DNA from: Hydrogenovibrio crunogenus
Lineage (GTDB): Bacteria; Pseudomonadota; Gammaproteobacteria; Thiomicrospirales; Thiomicrospiraceae
NCBI RefSeq assembly: GCF_004786015.1
Contig: NZ_CP032096.1
Location: forward strand, 1,674,001 to 1,738,000
Direction of reading: 5' to 3'
DNA: 64,000 nucleotides
Shown here: positions 24,129 through 58,923 of the stretch, one piece after another
Numbering within the stretch: position 1 is the first letter of the stretch
How the letters are laid out: each line of letters begins with the position of its first letter
Translations under genes and position numbers: made by a program
The notes under the pieces: generated by a model
The model's database searches: none
What the model saw: the letters and a program-made list of their open reading frames with translations, nothing else
Told to the model about the DNA's origin: nothing

Positions 24129-24155
24129 AAAAAAACGGCCAGGCCTGGCTATTTT
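24129..24155 (-). terminator. Terminator of the C-S lyase gene, overlapping its stop codon
   Basis: Core 24139-24148 forms a stem whose 5' arm contains the last coding bases and the TAG stop (24149-24151). A T7 run follows on the minus strand. Coding end and terminator are therefore the same bases. Confidence 0.85.
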
Positions 24156-25336
24156 GGCAACGTATTTGATGTAATCGCTTGTTTAAGCTGGGCAAGGGCT
24201 TGAGTCAATGTCTCTTCTGGAACGGCTAAATTCATTCGCATAAATCCTTTGCCGGCTTTGCCGAAACTTTCACCGTCATTCAACCCCAGCTTCGCATTGT
24301 AAACCAGCCAGTCTTTCAACGCCTCTTGGGACTCAAAAATGGCTGAAAAGTCCAGCCAAACCAAATAAGAAGCCTCCGGTATCATTACTTTTACCTGAGG
24401 TAAAAAACGATGAAAAAAGGTTTTCACGCGCTCAATATTTTCTAAAAAATACTGTAATAACTGATCACGATATTGACGGCCCTCGTCTGAATAAGCCGCT
24501 TGCGTTGCTAGATAACCAAACAAGTTCAAATCTTGAATGGCATTGGCTTGGCAAATTTTCAAGTAAGCCGCTTTTAACTCCGGATTGGCGATAATGGCAT
24601 AGCCGATCTGCAACCCACCCAAATTAAAGGTTTTACCGGGAGAGCTCAACGTAACGGTGTTGTTTTGACTTTCTTCTGTTATAGATGCCATCGGAATATG
24701 CTGATGCTCTGGATACGTCATATCCGCATGAATTTCATCCGACACCACAACCACGTCATGTTTTAAACAAATCGCTGCGAGTTTTTCCAGTTCCGATTTT
24801 AACCAAACCCGTCCAGAAGGGTTCTGAGGGTTACAAAACAAAAATAATTTCACTTGGTGATCGATGATTTTTTGTTCAAAAACGTCAAAATCAATTTCAT
24901 AACGATCGTTTTGCAATATCAATGGCGCTTCGACACACTGACGACTTTCAATTGCCGAAGCCGTCAAAAAAGGGGGATAAACCGGAGGCTGAACCAAAAT
25001 GGCATCGCCGGGATTCGTAAACGCAGAAACGGCCATAAAAAACCCATTCGCAACATTATGGGTAAACACAATATCAGAGGAATCAACCTCATAATAATAC
25101 TGCGCTTGCCAATCTACAATTGATTGATACAGTGAATCTGGCATATGGTTATACCCTAGAATGGGATGCTCCAGACGCTTCTTCAACACCTCTAATATGA
25201 AAGAGGGGGTAGGCAAATCCTGATCTGCCACCCACATGGGCAACACATCGTCCGTACCAAACAGTTTTTGGCGCAACTCATACTTTTCCGCATCCGTACC
25301 CAACCGGGAGATAGAATTGATAAATTCCACTTTCAT
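24149..25336 (-). CDS. PatB/MalY-type cystathionine beta-lyase or C-S lyase
   Basis: A fold-type I PLP enzyme of 395 residues. It carries MWVADQDLPTPSFI near the N-terminus, FTHNVANGFFMAVSAFT, CNPQNPSGRVW, SDEIHAD and the PLP lysine K235 in SSPGKTFNLGGL, the MalY/PatB pattern. Family members cleave C-S bonds in cystathionine or cysteine conjugates. Directly upstream on the same strand, with no gap, is ovoA, whose product (a cysteine-histidine sulfoxide conjugate) needs a PLP lyase (OvoB) to release the thiol. This enzyme is therefore a good OvoB candidate by position and family, which is inference. Confidence 0.88.
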   Translation of the reverse strand: MKVEFINSISRLGTDAEKYELRQKLFGTDDVLPMWVADQDLPTPSFILEVLKKRLEHPILGYNHMPDSLYQSIVDWQAQYYYEVDSSDIVFTHNVANGFFMAVSAFTNPGDAILVQPPVYPPFLTASAIESRQCVEAPLILQNDRYEIDFDVFEQKIIDHQVKLFLFCNPQNPSGRVWLKSELEKLAAICLKHDVVVVSDEIHADMTYPEHQHIPMASITEESQNNTVTLSSPGKTFNLGGLQIGYAIIANPELKAAYLKICQANAIQDLNLFGYLATQAAYSDEGRQYRDQLLQYFLENIERVKTFFHRFLPQVKVMIPEASYLVWLDFSAIFESQEALKDWLVYNAKLGLNDGESFGKAGKGFMRMNLAVPEETLTQALAQLKQAITSNTLPK

Positions 25337-27349
25337 TTAAGATTTCTTTTTCCAAAACGTCACTTCAGACAATGTGTGCTGGTACTTACGTTGTGTTTCT
25401 CGAATAACAAAGGGCAATTCTAGCGGCGTTTTCATTAACTCGAATTCCGCATCCAATATCTTATGCAACCCTTCTAAGGTGGTGACATTTTCACCACTGT
25501 CAGGGTCTTTATATCCCCCAATCCAATGCTCTTTGGCAGTAAATTCCTCCAACCAAGTATAAGGCGATGCCAACATCAGAATCCCGCCGGCATTCAACCG
25601 CTCATGAATCATTTTCAAGAAACGGTTCGGTTCATACAAACGATCAATCAAATTGACCGCCACAACCATATCATACCCGCTTAAATGAGGTTTCAAGTTA
25701 GCCGCATCCTGTTGTAAGAACTCACAACGCGACGTAACGGCCGCTAACCCTAAGTCCGCCAATGTTTGTTCTTTAAAATCAACAATCTCACCTTCCACGG
25801 GCAAAGTGTAAAGTACCGACCCGGTCTCTTTTAATTGATTCGCCACTTGAATGAAACGAGCCGAAAAGTCCAACCCCGTCACCTGTGCAAAATAATGCGC
25901 TAACTCAAAACTGGCTCGCCCAACTGAGCACCCCACTTCCAAAACACTTAAATCATCACGCCCGGCAAAATCACTATCCGACTGAATCATTTGAATTGCT
26001 AATTCAGCATAGGCTTGAGCAAAATTAGCAACACCAAAGTGCTCTTCTCCATAGTGAAATTCACAATATTGCGATACCAACGCATCGGTCTCATAGGTGG
26101 AAAAATGGGTTTGCACTTTCTCTGCCGACTCGATATAACGAAACCCAGCATGCTGGAAAAAATGACGACGAAATGCATAACGTGAATGTCCGTTGATTTC
26201 ATTGCCGGTCGAGATCCAGCTGCCGCCTTTAAACAAATTGTGCTGATTATCAAATGTGGGCGTCGTGAAATCATCGTATAGGGGATGCACCTTAAAGCTT
26301 TCATAAGGATAAATCGGGGTTTGCGTCCATTGCCAGACATTCCCGATTACGTCAAAAAAATCGCCCGTTTCAAATTGGTTAACAGGTATCGATGAGGCAT
26401 ATTGCTGTAAATTGATGTTCGCCTCTGACTGATAAGAAAGCGCATCAGTGTGATCACGCAACCGTAAATATTCATCTTCGCTGGGAAGCCGAATCGGGCG
26501 CCCCGTTTCATGACCTTTCCAGTTACAAAAAGCGTGCGCTTCCAGATAATTGACCTCAACCGGCCAATCCCAAGGCATTGGAATTTCTTCGGTCATACAG
26601 CGTAGCCACCAATCTTCCCCTTTCTTAACCCAAAAGGTTGGATGCTTATCAGGCGTAAATTGTCGCCAACGATTCCCCTCTTCATCCCAATATTCTGGAT
26701 TGTCATAGCCGCCGGCTTCCAAAAAGGCCAAAAACTCCTGGTTGGAAACCAAAAAGGCGGCCGCTTTAAATGTACTTACTTCCGCTTGGTGCATGCCGTA
26801 CTCATTATCCCAGCCATAAGTCTCTGCTGGATCCTGATGATTAATCTGCACTTCTCCAGCCGGCACTTCAAACAAAATATTTTCCGGAGCATCATCACTG
26901 TCCGGACAAACTGGAAATAGTGGGTGAGGCTTCACAAAGTGAATCGGCAACTGCCGAATCAGCACCGATGAGGTTTCTAAATGAATACGCTCATGTTCAA
27001 TCCCCATCATGATGGGCCACATTGGGCTTTCCCAATCAATCGGCAGACTGAAGTCAATCGTATCAATCAAGTGATTCACGGCATCCCGCACCTGATTTCG
27101 ATACTCGCGAACAGCTTCCACGCTTGGCCAGTCGTAATGTGTTTCGTCCAAATCATCCCAAGACATTTCATCCACCCCGATGGCGCACATCGACTCAATT
27201 TCAGGATTGATACGATTAGGTAGCAATTTGGCTAACAACAATTTATTTACAAAAAAAGTGGCCGTATGACCGAAATAAAAAATTAAAGGATGACGAAGTT
27301 CACAGGGTCTTTCATAAAAAGCATCCTCGGCTGTGAGGGTTTCAAACAA
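25337..27349 (-). CDS. ovoA: 5-histidylcysteine sulfoxide synthase / mercaptohistidine methyltransferase (OvoA), frame after internal TGA
   Basis: OvoA starts ovothiol A synthesis: a mononuclear iron domain couples cysteine to histidine with oxygen, and a C-terminal SAM domain methylates the mercaptohistidine. The open 670 residues hold a DinB-like part with GHTAT and IEHERIHLET (iron-binding histidines). An FGE-sulfatase-like domain with GNVWQWT and FKGGSWISTGNE follows, then a methyltransferase domain starting SVLEVGCSVGRAS. This frame begins at a TTG with no good ribosome site. Upstream, in the same frame, family-like sequence continues to an ATG at 27466 but is interrupted by TGA at 27416-27418. 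Expression may be lost, reduced or dependent on readthrough or re-initiation. The PLP lyase follows directly. Confidence 0.85.
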   Translation of the reverse strand: MFETLTAEDAFYERPCELRHPLIFYFGHTATFFVNKLLLAKLLPNRINPEIESMCAIGVDEMSWDDLDETHYDWPSVEAVREYRNQVRDAVNHLIDTIDFSLPIDWESPMWPIMMGIEHERIHLETSSVLIRQLPIHFVKPHPLFPVCPDSDDAPENILFEVPAGEVQINHQDPAETYGWDNEYGMHQAEVSTFKAAAFLVSNQEFLAFLEAGGYDNPEYWDEEGNRWRQFTPDKHPTFWVKKGEDWWLRCMTEEIPMPWDWPVEVNYLEAHAFCNWKGHETGRPIRLPSEDEYLRLRDHTDALSYQSEANINLQQYASSIPVNQFETGDFFDVIGNVWQWTQTPIYPYESFKVHPLYDDFTTPTFDNQHNLFKGGSWISTGNEINGHSRYAFRRHFFQHAGFRYIESAEKVQTHFSTYETDALVSQYCEFHYGEEHFGVANFAQAYAELAIQMIQSDSDFAGRDDLSVLEVGCSVGRASFELAHYFAQVTGLDFSARFIQVANQLKETGSVLYTLPVEGEIVDFKEQTLADLGLAAVTSRCEFLQQDAANLKPHLSGYDMVVAVNLIDRLYEPNRFLKMIHERLNAGGILMLASPYTWLEEFTAKEHWIGGYKDPDSGENVTTLEGLHKILDAEFELMKTPLELPFVIRETQRKYQHTLSEVTFWKKKS

Positions 27350-27466
27350 GGTTTCATACGCATTATAAGTCGCATTAAAATACGCTTTGATTTCAGTCCG
27401 TTTGCTACTGACCTCTCACTTATTTAAAACAATCGGTTTTGAAATTAATTCTTCTTTGCTTAACAT
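27350..27466 (-). pseudogene. ovoA: N-terminal coding segment of ovoA, interrupted by an in-frame TGA
   Basis: From ATG at 27466, preceded by a good TGGAG ribosome site, the frame reads MLSKEELISKPIVLNK. It then meets TGA (codon 17) and continues EVSSKRTEIKAYFNATYNAYE straight into the open ovoA frame. The post-stop part matches the usual OvoA opening, in which KR-EI-YF follows a glycine-containing loop. A GGA at the TGA position would restore a normal ~709-residue protein. Confidence 0.75.
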
Positions 27467-27507
27467 GAAAGCTCCACAGCTACTTTTTCATTAAAATCTT
27501 TAAAAGA

Positions 27508-30315
27508 CTACATTGACAACAAAACACCGGTCTCGGGTAAATCTTCAAAGGAAGGGTGACACGTCGTCAATCGACTGGAATGAATGCCTCCTTGCTCAAC
27601 CAACCAGTCTTTAACCTGGTTTTGACGCGTTTGAGCTAAAGAATAAAGCGTGTCTTGCAATGCTTGATCTTTCAGTCCCTTCTGAATCCAATAGTTTCGA
27701 TCTTGCTGGTTGTAGAAACCACACACTTTTAAAGTAATCTTTTTTTTATCTTCCAATAACGTCACAATTTTTTGTAAATATTGTGCCATGCCCGGTTTAA
27801 TTTTATTCTGCCCAACTTCATAAGAAATCGGTTGTAACGTCACGGTATTAGCTTGCTTAAAAGCATACTCTGCCGCCAGATAAATCGCACCATAGGGTTG
27901 AAGCGTCATGGCTAACATCGTTTTTGAACCACTTTGCAAAGCGTTAAGTACGGCTTTTTGTATCACTTGATCTAAGCGAAAACTTGGATCAGACAAGTCG
28001 CCTTCAATAGGAATATCCAGTTCTATTTTTCCTTCATTATCGCGCAATAGGTTCAATGCCAGACTCGCTGTCCCACCTGTTAATGATCCGTCTGCTTGAA
28101 TATCTTGGCTGTTGGATGCGTCGGTAGAAGTACTTTCTTCTGTACTGTTCTCTAGCTCAAACCCTTTCAAGGCCAGATGGTTTTTAGATTTGAGCATGTC
28201 CTCTTGGATTTGAATATCCGATTCCAGAGTCAGCGCTCCACTTTGAATTCGATAACCCAAAGCATCTTTAATCAAAGGCGAAAAGGCATACAAATCCAAT
28301 TCATCCACGTTAAACCTTACATCCATATTCGTTTTTTGAGTAAAAGGATGAAGACTCCCTTCTAGGCCAATTTTAGTATATTTCCCAACCGTCGCTTCCA
28401 GTTTGACAGGTGTCTTTAATAACGGTTTTTCAGAATTTAAAGAGCCCAATTCAACCCGCTTTAAATGAATATTCTGTTTCATTTTTGAATCCAGCCCGTG
28501 CGTTTCAAAAACGATGTGATTCTTCTGTCCGGTGACGGAAAATTGCTCTAATTTTATGGCTGCATTTTTTGTTTCACTGGATACAGGTTCAACCGGGTTC
28601 TGTGTCGATTCAGATTTCATTTTGCTGGATGGGGATTCACTGGTTTCACCCAAAGATTTAATCAGCGCCTGCACTTCTTCCAATTCATGCTGCGCATTTA
28701 ATGTTAAATGGGCATCGACATTGTGAACGGTCACTTTTCCTAATTCGGTTTTACTATTACCATCCATCATCAAATCTGACAGTTGTATTCCCGCCACCTG
28801 TAGAAATGGCGCAGCGGAATCAACTTTCTGACCGACCGCAATATCATCCAATGACAACTGTTTGAATTGAATGGTTTTTGGAGACTGAAACTGCACATTT
28901 GATTTCATTTGCGCTAATTGTAGAACCCTTTTGTTCAATGTTGCATTGCGAACAATCAGTTTCGAGCTCCCTAACTGCCCCGACATGTCCATAGGCTTTT
29001 CTGCATTTGGCTCTATATTTACACCGCCTTGCCATTGAAGCAAATCGTTACTGACTCGCAGATCGTCCAAAGCCACGGATGTTTTTTCTAACGCCAATTG
29101 CGTTCCTTGCAACATAATCTTGGATTTTTTCTGCGATGGGGTCGCTGTTGTTTCTTGATAGGTGAGAGGCCCTTTCCAGAACAACGTCTTAATCTTGGTA
29201 TCCAAATGATCTTGCTTAAATCCAGACTCGGATACCATTAATTGATTACGACTTTCAACTTGTAGCTTCTTTGACTGCTGTTCTATATTGACTTGCCCTA
29301 ACCACTTCAAATCCTCCAGGTGAATGAGTTGCTGTGGTTGCGTCAGAGCAAACTGATTCAATTGCCATTCGCCATTCGCCTGCAGTGTGTAACCGTCATT
29401 TTTATCAATGCTAAAAGTCAGCTGACCGTTCCAGTCAACCGCATTGGATTGGATTTGAAAATCTTGCTGTTGCAAGGTTAGATTACGTACACCAATTTGA
29501 CCACTTTGCTGAATATCAACTGCACCATAGTGGTTTTTTACCTTAACCTCCAGTTCACCGGAAGCTAATCCCGAAAACATTTCCCATGTTTTTGGCAAAT
29601 ACCCTTGGTAAGAGTGCAAATCAAAATCTGAAATTTGGATTTGACCTTTAATGACCTGAGTATCGGAGAATATCTTGGTATCTAAATTCCCCGTTAACAG
29701 TCCTTTATCATCCTGAATACGAAAACCCAGCTGTGAATACAGTTCTGGTTTCCAATTAGCTGTTCTGGACACGGAGACGTCTTCAAACTGAATAACCTTA
29801 TTCAATTCGGGTGTCTTAAGGTTTAAAGTCGCATTTTTTAAAACCAGGTTTTGAAACCCCAACCCCCAAAAGAAAGGCTTTTTTGCCGCTTCTTCAGGCG
29901 TCGTCACGGATTGTTTGGTGTTTAAAGGAAAGCTTATGCCTCCCACTCGAATGTACTCATTCGGCTGATATGTCAGAAACAATGTTGTGTCGAACAACTC
30001 TAAGGTTTGCAGATTAATATGCCTTTGCAGCAAGTCCAACCACCCCAAATTAACTTTTAAATGCCCCAGATTGAGCTGCTGTTGCTGGTTCGTTGACACG
30101 GAAAGGTTAAACAGTTCCAAGCGACCACTGAAAGGGTTAATAATCACTTTTTCGACCTGAGCCGATTCCGCTCCTTGCTGAACCAGTGCATATTCAATGG
30201 TTTTTTTAAGCATTAAGGGTAAAAAGAATAAGAAAACAGCCAGAACAAGAGCCGTAATAATAAAAGATTTATAACGTGTTTTAAGGGATTTCCAGCGTAA
30301 CAGAATGGCTTTCAT
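27508..30315 (-). CDS. DUF748 family envelope protein (AsmA-like)
   Basis: A 935-residue protein with one N-terminal membrane segment (about 19-36) and a long periplasmic beta-rich body. The opening after the anchor (VIINPFSGRLELFNLSVS, then LGWLDLLQRHINLQTLELFD) is the DUF748 pattern, distantly related to AsmA-like proteins that bridge inner and outer membranes. The C-terminal 110 residues have the family's OmpA-like ending (YEVGQNKIKPGMAQYLQKI, LKVCGFYNQQDR). A role in lipid or envelope homeostasis is inferred from the superfamily. It is downstream of alpha-carbonic anhydrase, separated by a terminator. Confidence 0.82.
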   Translation of the reverse strand: MKAILLRWKSLKTRYKSFIITALVLAVFLFFLPLMLKKTIEYALVQQGAESAQVEKVIINPFSGRLELFNLSVSTNQQQQLNLGHLKVNLGWLDLLQRHINLQTLELFDTTLFLTYQPNEYIRVGGISFPLNTKQSVTTPEEAAKKPFFWGLGFQNLVLKNATLNLKTPELNKVIQFEDVSVSRTANWKPELYSQLGFRIQDDKGLLTGNLDTKIFSDTQVIKGQIQISDFDLHSYQGYLPKTWEMFSGLASGELEVKVKNHYGAVDIQQSGQIGVRNLTLQQQDFQIQSNAVDWNGQLTFSIDKNDGYTLQANGEWQLNQFALTQPQQLIHLEDLKWLGQVNIEQQSKKLQVESRNQLMVSESGFKQDHLDTKIKTLFWKGPLTYQETTATPSQKKSKIMLQGTQLALEKTSVALDDLRVSNDLLQWQGGVNIEPNAEKPMDMSGQLGSSKLIVRNATLNKRVLQLAQMKSNVQFQSPKTIQFKQLSLDDIAVGQKVDSAAPFLQVAGIQLSDLMMDGNSKTELGKVTVHNVDAHLTLNAQHELEEVQALIKSLGETSESPSSKMKSESTQNPVEPVSSETKNAAIKLEQFSVTGQKNHIVFETHGLDSKMKQNIHLKRVELGSLNSEKPLLKTPVKLEATVGKYTKIGLEGSLHPFTQKTNMDVRFNVDELDLYAFSPLIKDALGYRIQSGALTLESDIQIQEDMLKSKNHLALKGFELENSTEESTSTDASNSQDIQADGSLTGGTASLALNLLRDNEGKIELDIPIEGDLSDPSFRLDQVIQKAVLNALQSGSKTMLAMTLQPYGAIYLAAEYAFKQANTVTLQPISYEVGQNKIKPGMAQYLQKIVTLLEDKKKITLKVCGFYNQQDRNYWIQKGLKDQALQDTLYSLAQTRQNQVKDWLVEQGGIHSSRLTTCHPSFEDLPETGVLLSM

Positions 30316-56806: not shown

Positions 56807-58901
56807 ATGAATCAGTCACCTCTTTATATCGCTATATTAGCAGCTTTATCCACATCAACTCTTAGCTCAACGACTTATGCCGAAACGGATAAGTTGAAAA
56901 AAATAACCGTTGCCGCAACCGCAGAGGAAGCGGCACCGCAAGAAGATACTCACACGAGTGCGGAGCTGCTGGACAATGGTAATAGTGAAACTGGAGATGT
57001 GCTTCGCCAAGTCAACGGAGTTTCTGCGGCAAGAAAAGGCGGACATGGCTTAGACCCTCAAATTAGAGGACAACAATACTCTCAACTTAACATTCTTTTA
57101 GATGGTGCCAAGATTGAAGGCGGATGCCCGAATAGAATGGATCCACCGACGTCTTACTCCGAAGTATCGTCTTATGATGAAGTCGTGGTAATCCGTGGCG
57201 TCAACAGCGTTTTAAATGGTCCGGGTGGAAGCGGCGGAACCATTTTATTTAACCGTCAAAAACCCACCTATAATCCTGAAAAAAACCACCTCAGGAGAAG
57301 TCTCTGTTGGGAAATCGAATATTTTAAATTATGAAACCAACGCTGAAGTTCAAGCGGTGGGTAAAACAGGCTATGTTGTGGTTCAAGGCTCTCGTAAAGA
57401 CGCCAACAATTACACGGACGGCAATGGCGATGTCGTTAAATCTAGCTATAACACAAACCAAAGTCATATTGATTTGGGTTGGACACCAAGCGACAACCAT
57501 CACTTAAAATTGTCTGCCGAGAAAAGTCGAACAGAAGATGCTCTATATCCGGGTGCTGCAATGGATGCCCCAGAAACAGAAGGCACCATGTTGCGCTTGA
57601 AATATGAAGGCCGTCAACTGTCCGAAGCCATTGCCGACGTAGATATAGACTTATACCGCTCTACGGTGGATCATGTCATGAATAATTTTGATCTCAGAAA
57701 CCCGCCTTCTGCCATGATGAAAAGAGAAACGCCAACCTCAACAGAATCGAATGGCGCAAAAGTTAAATTAACCAGCCATATTGGCAAAACACAGTTTGAC
57801 TACGGAATGCAATTGGAAAGCGTCAATAAAGAGGCAACGCTTTGGAATCGCTCGGTGACTCCGAACACTTCCCTAAATTATATGTGGCCAGATGTGACAA
57901 ACACGACCAAAAGTCTGTTTGCAGAGACCAATACCTTACTTTCACAACAAAGCAATTTAATTTTCGGGCTGCGTTATGACCAGATTGATGTTAAAGCGAA
58001 TGACATCAACCAAGCACCAACCGGTGCACCTGGAAACATGCCAAGCTTGGTCTATGCAAAAACCTACAGTGATTACAACGGTGAAAGCACAGCAAATGAA
58101 GATAATTTAAGTGGGTTACTTCGATTTGAGAATACGTTCGCATCAAACTATAAATGGTATTTAGGTGCTAGCCATACGAAAAGAACAGCCGATGCGACCG
58201 AAAGATTCATGTCAAAATGGGGCATGATGAGTGGTACCCAAACCAGCTGGGTTGGAAACCCGAATATCAAACCCGAACAACATAACCAAATCGATTTAGG
58301 CCTTGGGCAAAAAACGGCGCAATTGAATTGGAATATTTCGGTATGGTATGACAAGGTCAATGATTATATCTTGAGAGATTTAGCCACTAATCAATATGAC
58401 AATGGCATTAAAACAACCGCTAAAGATCAAACTGAAGTGTACGTGAATGTCGACGCTGAACTGTATGGGGCCGATCTGGAAGCAGATTATAGAATAACAT
58501 CCGCGTTTACTGCAGGAGGACAATTCAGCTTGACGAAAGGTCGTAACACGACCGACAATCGTAATATTGCAATGATTTCTGCTCCAACAGGGTCACTACA
58601 CGCAACCTATCGTCCAAGCAACTGGCACTTAGGGGGACGTTTTAACTTTGCACTAGAACAAACTGATATTGATAAGGCCTATACGCCTGAAGCAAACCAT
58701 GGCGAAACGCCAGCTTGGAGCACGTTAGACATTTACGGAGGATATCAGTTATCTAAAACCTGGCAAATTAATGCAGGAATCGACAATTTAATGGATCACG
58801 CTTATTATGATCACTTAAGCTATGATCCTGTCGACCCAACCATTTATAAAAACAATGAGCCGGGGCGCAACTACTGGGCAAAAGTGACGGCCAAGTTTTA
58901 A
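56807..58901 (+). pseudogene. TonB-dependent copper receptor (OprC/NosA type), frameshifted
   Basis: Outer-membrane copper-uptake receptor. The first frame holds a signal peptide (to about residue 25), the plug domain and the copper motif Cys107-Pro-Asn-Arg-Met111 in GGCPNRMDPPTSY, matching the CxxxM site of OprC. After FNRQKPTYNPEK the frame breaks in a run of seven A's (57279-57285). The second frame resumes with TTSGEVSVGKSNIL and continues to the terminal beta-strand aromatic (VTAKF). Six A's would give one 697-residue receptor, the family size. This may be a real mutation, a slippage-switched gene or an assembly error. It is followed by a terminator and then SCO1 and PCuAC. Confidence 0.85.
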
Positions 58902-58923
58902 TTAGCAGGTTATTAATCTATAG

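Follow-up and report, generated by a model that had tools for sequence, protein, structure and literature searches.

The stretch of DNA analysed here (the window, 64,000 nucleotides) is from the deep-sea vent bacterium Hydrogenovibrio sp. SP-41, whose genome is a single contig of 2,453,259 bases, and its minus strand carries a gene, ovoA, for the bifunctional enzyme (5-histidylcysteine sulfoxide synthase / N-methyltransferase) of the synthesis of ovothiol, an antioxidant. The gene is single copy, as no second ovoA was found in the genome, and its frame is broken by a TGA shortly after the start. The relevant features, in window positions, are the following.

25337..27466, minus strand: ovoA, a frame of 709 codons and a stop, broken by the TGA of codon 17
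27472-27476: Shine-Dalgarno-like TGGAG of ovoA, 5 nt ahead of the ATG at 27466
27464..27466, minus strand: ATG start codon of ovoA, at the start position of most close relatives
27416..27418, minus strand: in-frame TGA, codon 17 of ovoA, in the loop just ahead of helix 1
27347..27349, minus strand: TTG, codon 40, the first in-frame ATG/GTG/TTG past the ovoA stop
24149..25336, minus strand: intact PatB-family C-S lyase gene, probable ovoB, beginning at the next base after the ovoA stop

From the ATG at 27466 there are 16 codons, the TGA, 692 sense codons and a terminal TAA at 25337-25339, and the translation reads MLSKEELISKPIVLNK, a stop, and then EVSSKRTEIKAYF and onward, with the TGA of codon 17 as the sole internal stop. 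The product has a DinB-like/FGE-like sulfoxide synthase domain followed by a C-terminal N-methyltransferase domain, and the part of the frame 3′ of the stop scores 678.4 bits against TIGR04344 (ovoA_Nterm; curated cut-off 400), 321.4 bits against TIGR04345 (ovoA_Cterm; curated cut-off 170) and 865 bits against the OvoA of solved structure PDB 8khq. The iron-ligand histidines of the GH...HERIH motif, H67, H158 and H162, are all present and are invariant in the 30 sequences compared. In these respects, and in adjoining a gene for a PatB-type C-S lyase (548.7 bits, cut-off 340), the window gene is like characterized OvoA; it differs in that the frame from the family start is interrupted: with codon 17 a premature TGA, no enzyme should be made from the gene in its present form. 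The lyase gene is probably ovoB, and the two genes are conserved neighbours in relatives. Upstream, a gene for a 935-amino-acid DUF748 protein (27508-30315, minus strand) ends 41 bases before the ovoA ATG.

The first-pass annotation had described the TGA as splitting a family-like N-terminus, with a well-placed ATG and TGGAG, from an OvoA that is otherwise intact down to its iron-site histidines, and comparison with relatives bears this out. There is homology on both sides of the stop, no other internal stop is present, both domains exceed their cut-offs and the downstream codons are conserved. The frames of close relatives run on upstream of codon 17 and are alignable there (for instance ISKPVFLNQGEIEAKRAEIK), and most of the family relatives share this ATG or start from one close by, which disposes of the concern that orthologues might begin beyond the stop and lack homology upstream. 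At the column of codon 17, glycine is present in all 22 family relatives compared. In the wider comparison set of 109 loci (the window ovoA and 108 others) glycine is found in 42 of the 108, with D, T, S, A, E, N, P, V, R, Q and K also occurring, and neither cysteine nor a stop is present at that column in any of the 108. A stop anywhere within the gene is confined to two of the 109 loci, the window ovoA and that of genome G002 considered below, and the window TGA itself is absent from all relatives compared. On these figures, and on those of the 800-kb comparison given below, the stop is not put down to chance. The glycine codons of the family relatives are GGN, and the proposal that a single G-to-T change from a glycine codon generated the TGA fits well with this. 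The named genome collection holds nothing closer than about 80% identity for strain comparison. In a predicted structure (mean pLDDT 81) codon 17 is in a loop before helix 1, which comprises residues 19-43. As the column is variable across OvoAs, the residue itself is not critical and an amino acid inserted there by readthrough would probably be tolerated.

Downstream of the stop there is no clear acceleration of ovoA evolution. Over 690 downstream codons, dN to G010, a near relative of the sister genome G002, is 0.10 with dS saturated, and the counts of unique amino acid changes in SP-41 and G010 are 42 versus 30 with L004 as outgroup and 31 versus 36 with L005. The branch in the OvoA tree is 0.098 for SP-41 as against 0.12 for its sister. 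Where the family is at least 80% conserved, 10 changes are private to SP-41, with the stop excluded (G390S is one), and 2 to G010, a weak hint that slight relaxation may have begun. The absence of clear acceleration suggests that the stop is probably recent; strictly it points either to a recent stop or to a gene that still works, of which recency is the simpler. A stop private to one genome, intact orthologues and little decay downstream together form the pattern of a recent nonsense pseudogene, and a single premature stop in an otherwise intact gene of one genome is also what is seen with recent pseudogenes and strain-level nonsense alleles in other bacteria.

From these comparisons, the reading favored here, with a probability of roughly 80%, is that a recent GGA-to-TGA nonsense mutation has arisen in an otherwise well-preserved SP-41 ovoA, with ovothiol synthesis lost or strongly reduced. 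This was among the options offered by the first-pass annotation, and the glycine of relatives, the downstream conservation and the lack of recoding machinery described below all support it. The ancestral codon 17, probably GGA in its exact form, would have become TGA by one G-to-T change, and ribosomes initiating at the ATG at 27466 would terminate after 16 residues. Beyond a trace due to basal UGA readthrough, which is expected to yield no useful product, full-length sulfoxide synthase/methyltransferase would not be made, and without it ovothiol synthesis in SP-41 would be lost, perhaps completely, or strongly reduced. The long untranslated remainder of ovoA may also lower expression of ovoB.

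Several alternatives need to be kept in mind, and one is that the TGA is not in the organism at all. The SP-41 genome of 2,453,259 bp was sequenced to 503x with PacBio and corrected using Pilon with Illumina reads, and these reads came from an enrichment culture rather than from the isolate (PMC6501319). A base-call error, another of the options first put forward, is unlikely because of this depth of PacBio coverage combined with Illumina polishing. While the reliance of the polishing on reads from the enrichment culture, and the presence in the same genome of a TonB receptor gene frameshifted at an A7 run that could be a homopolymer error, lend the notion of a sequencing or assembly error something, the ovoA change is a substitution, PacBio errors are mainly indels, and every other orthologue compared over 800 kb is free of genuine internal stops, all of which make such an origin very improbable. 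A start further 3′ is harder still to sustain. Re-initiation at the TTG at 27349, the only in-frame ATG/GTG/TTG between the stop and the iron site, would give an N-terminally shortened OvoA of 670 amino acids that retains all the iron-site histidines and scores 650 bits against ovoA_Nterm, and this is also where a mechanical gene call places the start. Yet the TTG is 66 nt beyond the stop and has no Shine-Dalgarno sequence (3 of 6 matches), the OvoA starts of relatives lie upstream of it, and a product beginning at residue 40 would lack nearly all of the predicted helix 1, and with it R23, Y29, F30, T33, Y37 and E38, each conserved at about 90% or more. That re-initiation here, an option raised at first, gives a working protein is thus scarcely to be expected.

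The remaining alternative is that full-length OvoA is made in sufficient amount by basal or condition-dependent readthrough, with the TGA acting as a leaky attenuator. An in-frame UGA flanked by coding sequence is what is seen in selenocysteine insertion and in programmed readthrough; however, there is no match for SelA in the genome, candidate hits for tRNA-Sec were below cut-off, with the eight loci that were read being Ser, Leu, Gly, Trp and Cys tRNAs, and the UGA is not conserved, with relatives having glycine or other residues, never cysteine, in its place. Selenocysteine was accordingly rejected. Nor was a suppressor tRNA seen: among the tRNAs read none has a UCA anticodon and all anticodons are standard, tRNA-Trp keeps the normal G24, and RF2 has RASGAGGQ, with Ala at the position at which E. 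coli K-12 has the weak Thr246. The frame cannot be rescued by a -1 slip at T TTA AAT, immediately 5′ of the stop, since this runs straight into a TAA. Of simple leakiness, UGA is the leakiest stop codon in E. coli, with leakage rising at low temperature and in minimal medium, and though its readthrough at 37 C is below 1% in most of the reporters that show any, in one context it reaches about 80% in the cold (PMC11126739), making a partly functional, leaky gene conceivable. The variability of codon 17, its position in the loop before helix 1, where an inserted Trp, Cys or Arg would probably be tolerated, and the conserved sequence 3′ of the stop would all be compatible with this. Against it, besides the normal tRNA-Trp and RF2 and the missing selenocysteine system and suppressor tRNA, the uniqueness of the stop among relatives leaves no conserved readthrough element to be argued for, and a recent mutation accounts for the downstream conservation equally well. 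Regulated readthrough, then, finds no support, and the low-level leakage first suggested is possible; that it gives enough OvoA to matter is unlikely.

A recent nonsense mutation is an ordinary kind of event, and the one notable point is a parallel in the sister genome G002. Its ovoA (L003, G002:C1:1761731-1763800) has a TAG in place of the codon for Trp648, a residue invariant in 30 OvoAs, while the near relative G010, at a dS of 0.22 from G002, is intact there with TGG (L002). The G002 stop, at a different site, is independent of that of SP-41. In G002 the sulfoxide synthase domain would remain, and the methyltransferase would be cut short by its last 62 or so residues. What sets the SP-41 case apart from other strain-level nonsense alleles is that a sister has broken this gene too, by a stop of its own. 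When 800 kb of each genome were compared (about 490 orthologues, 168,000 codons), no gene but ovoA had a genuine internal stop in SP-41 or G002, and general gene decay or a poor assembly was rejected on this ground; the remaining hits to pass the filter were frames within the rRNA genes of an rRNA operon. Since ovoA amounts to about 0.4% of the compared codons, a double hit is unlikely by chance, with the proviso that the coincidence was noticed after the fact. No ovoA match was found in the high-completeness family genomes G062 and G077 or in those of genus g7 (G017, G021, G024), and its absence from several nearly complete family genomes together with the two stops fits with repeated loss. 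That the SP-41 lineage loses ovoA repeatedly is the best reading of the pattern. A bolder view, that Hydrogenovibrio ovoA is under recurrent and possibly condition-dependent selection for inactivation, with the SP-41 UGA serving as a leaky switch that lowers rather than abolishes ovothiol, is quite unlikely. In another genus of the family, ovoA is split by a frameshift (L234, G065:C132) in a fragmented, 83%-complete genome, where it could be an assembly error.

For the published genome of this chemolithoautotroph the present reading is a correction, as a gene caller can display ovoA as an intact 670-residue gene starting at the TTG. The two independent recent stops hint that some vent Hydrogenovibrio can do without ovothiol or pay a cost for it, and a literature search linking Hydrogenovibrio with ovothiol found no paper. 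As the role of ovothiol in bacteria is poorly understood, ovoA-defective strains may be usable as natural knock-outs, and SP-41 would be one such natural strain with intact close relatives beside it. Elsewhere in the window, the TonB-dependent receptor gene mentioned above (56807-58902, plus strand; Plug domain, then beta-barrel) is split near 57283, at the A7 run, and is in one unbroken frame in relatives; the split could reflect a real frameshift, phase variation or a homopolymer error.
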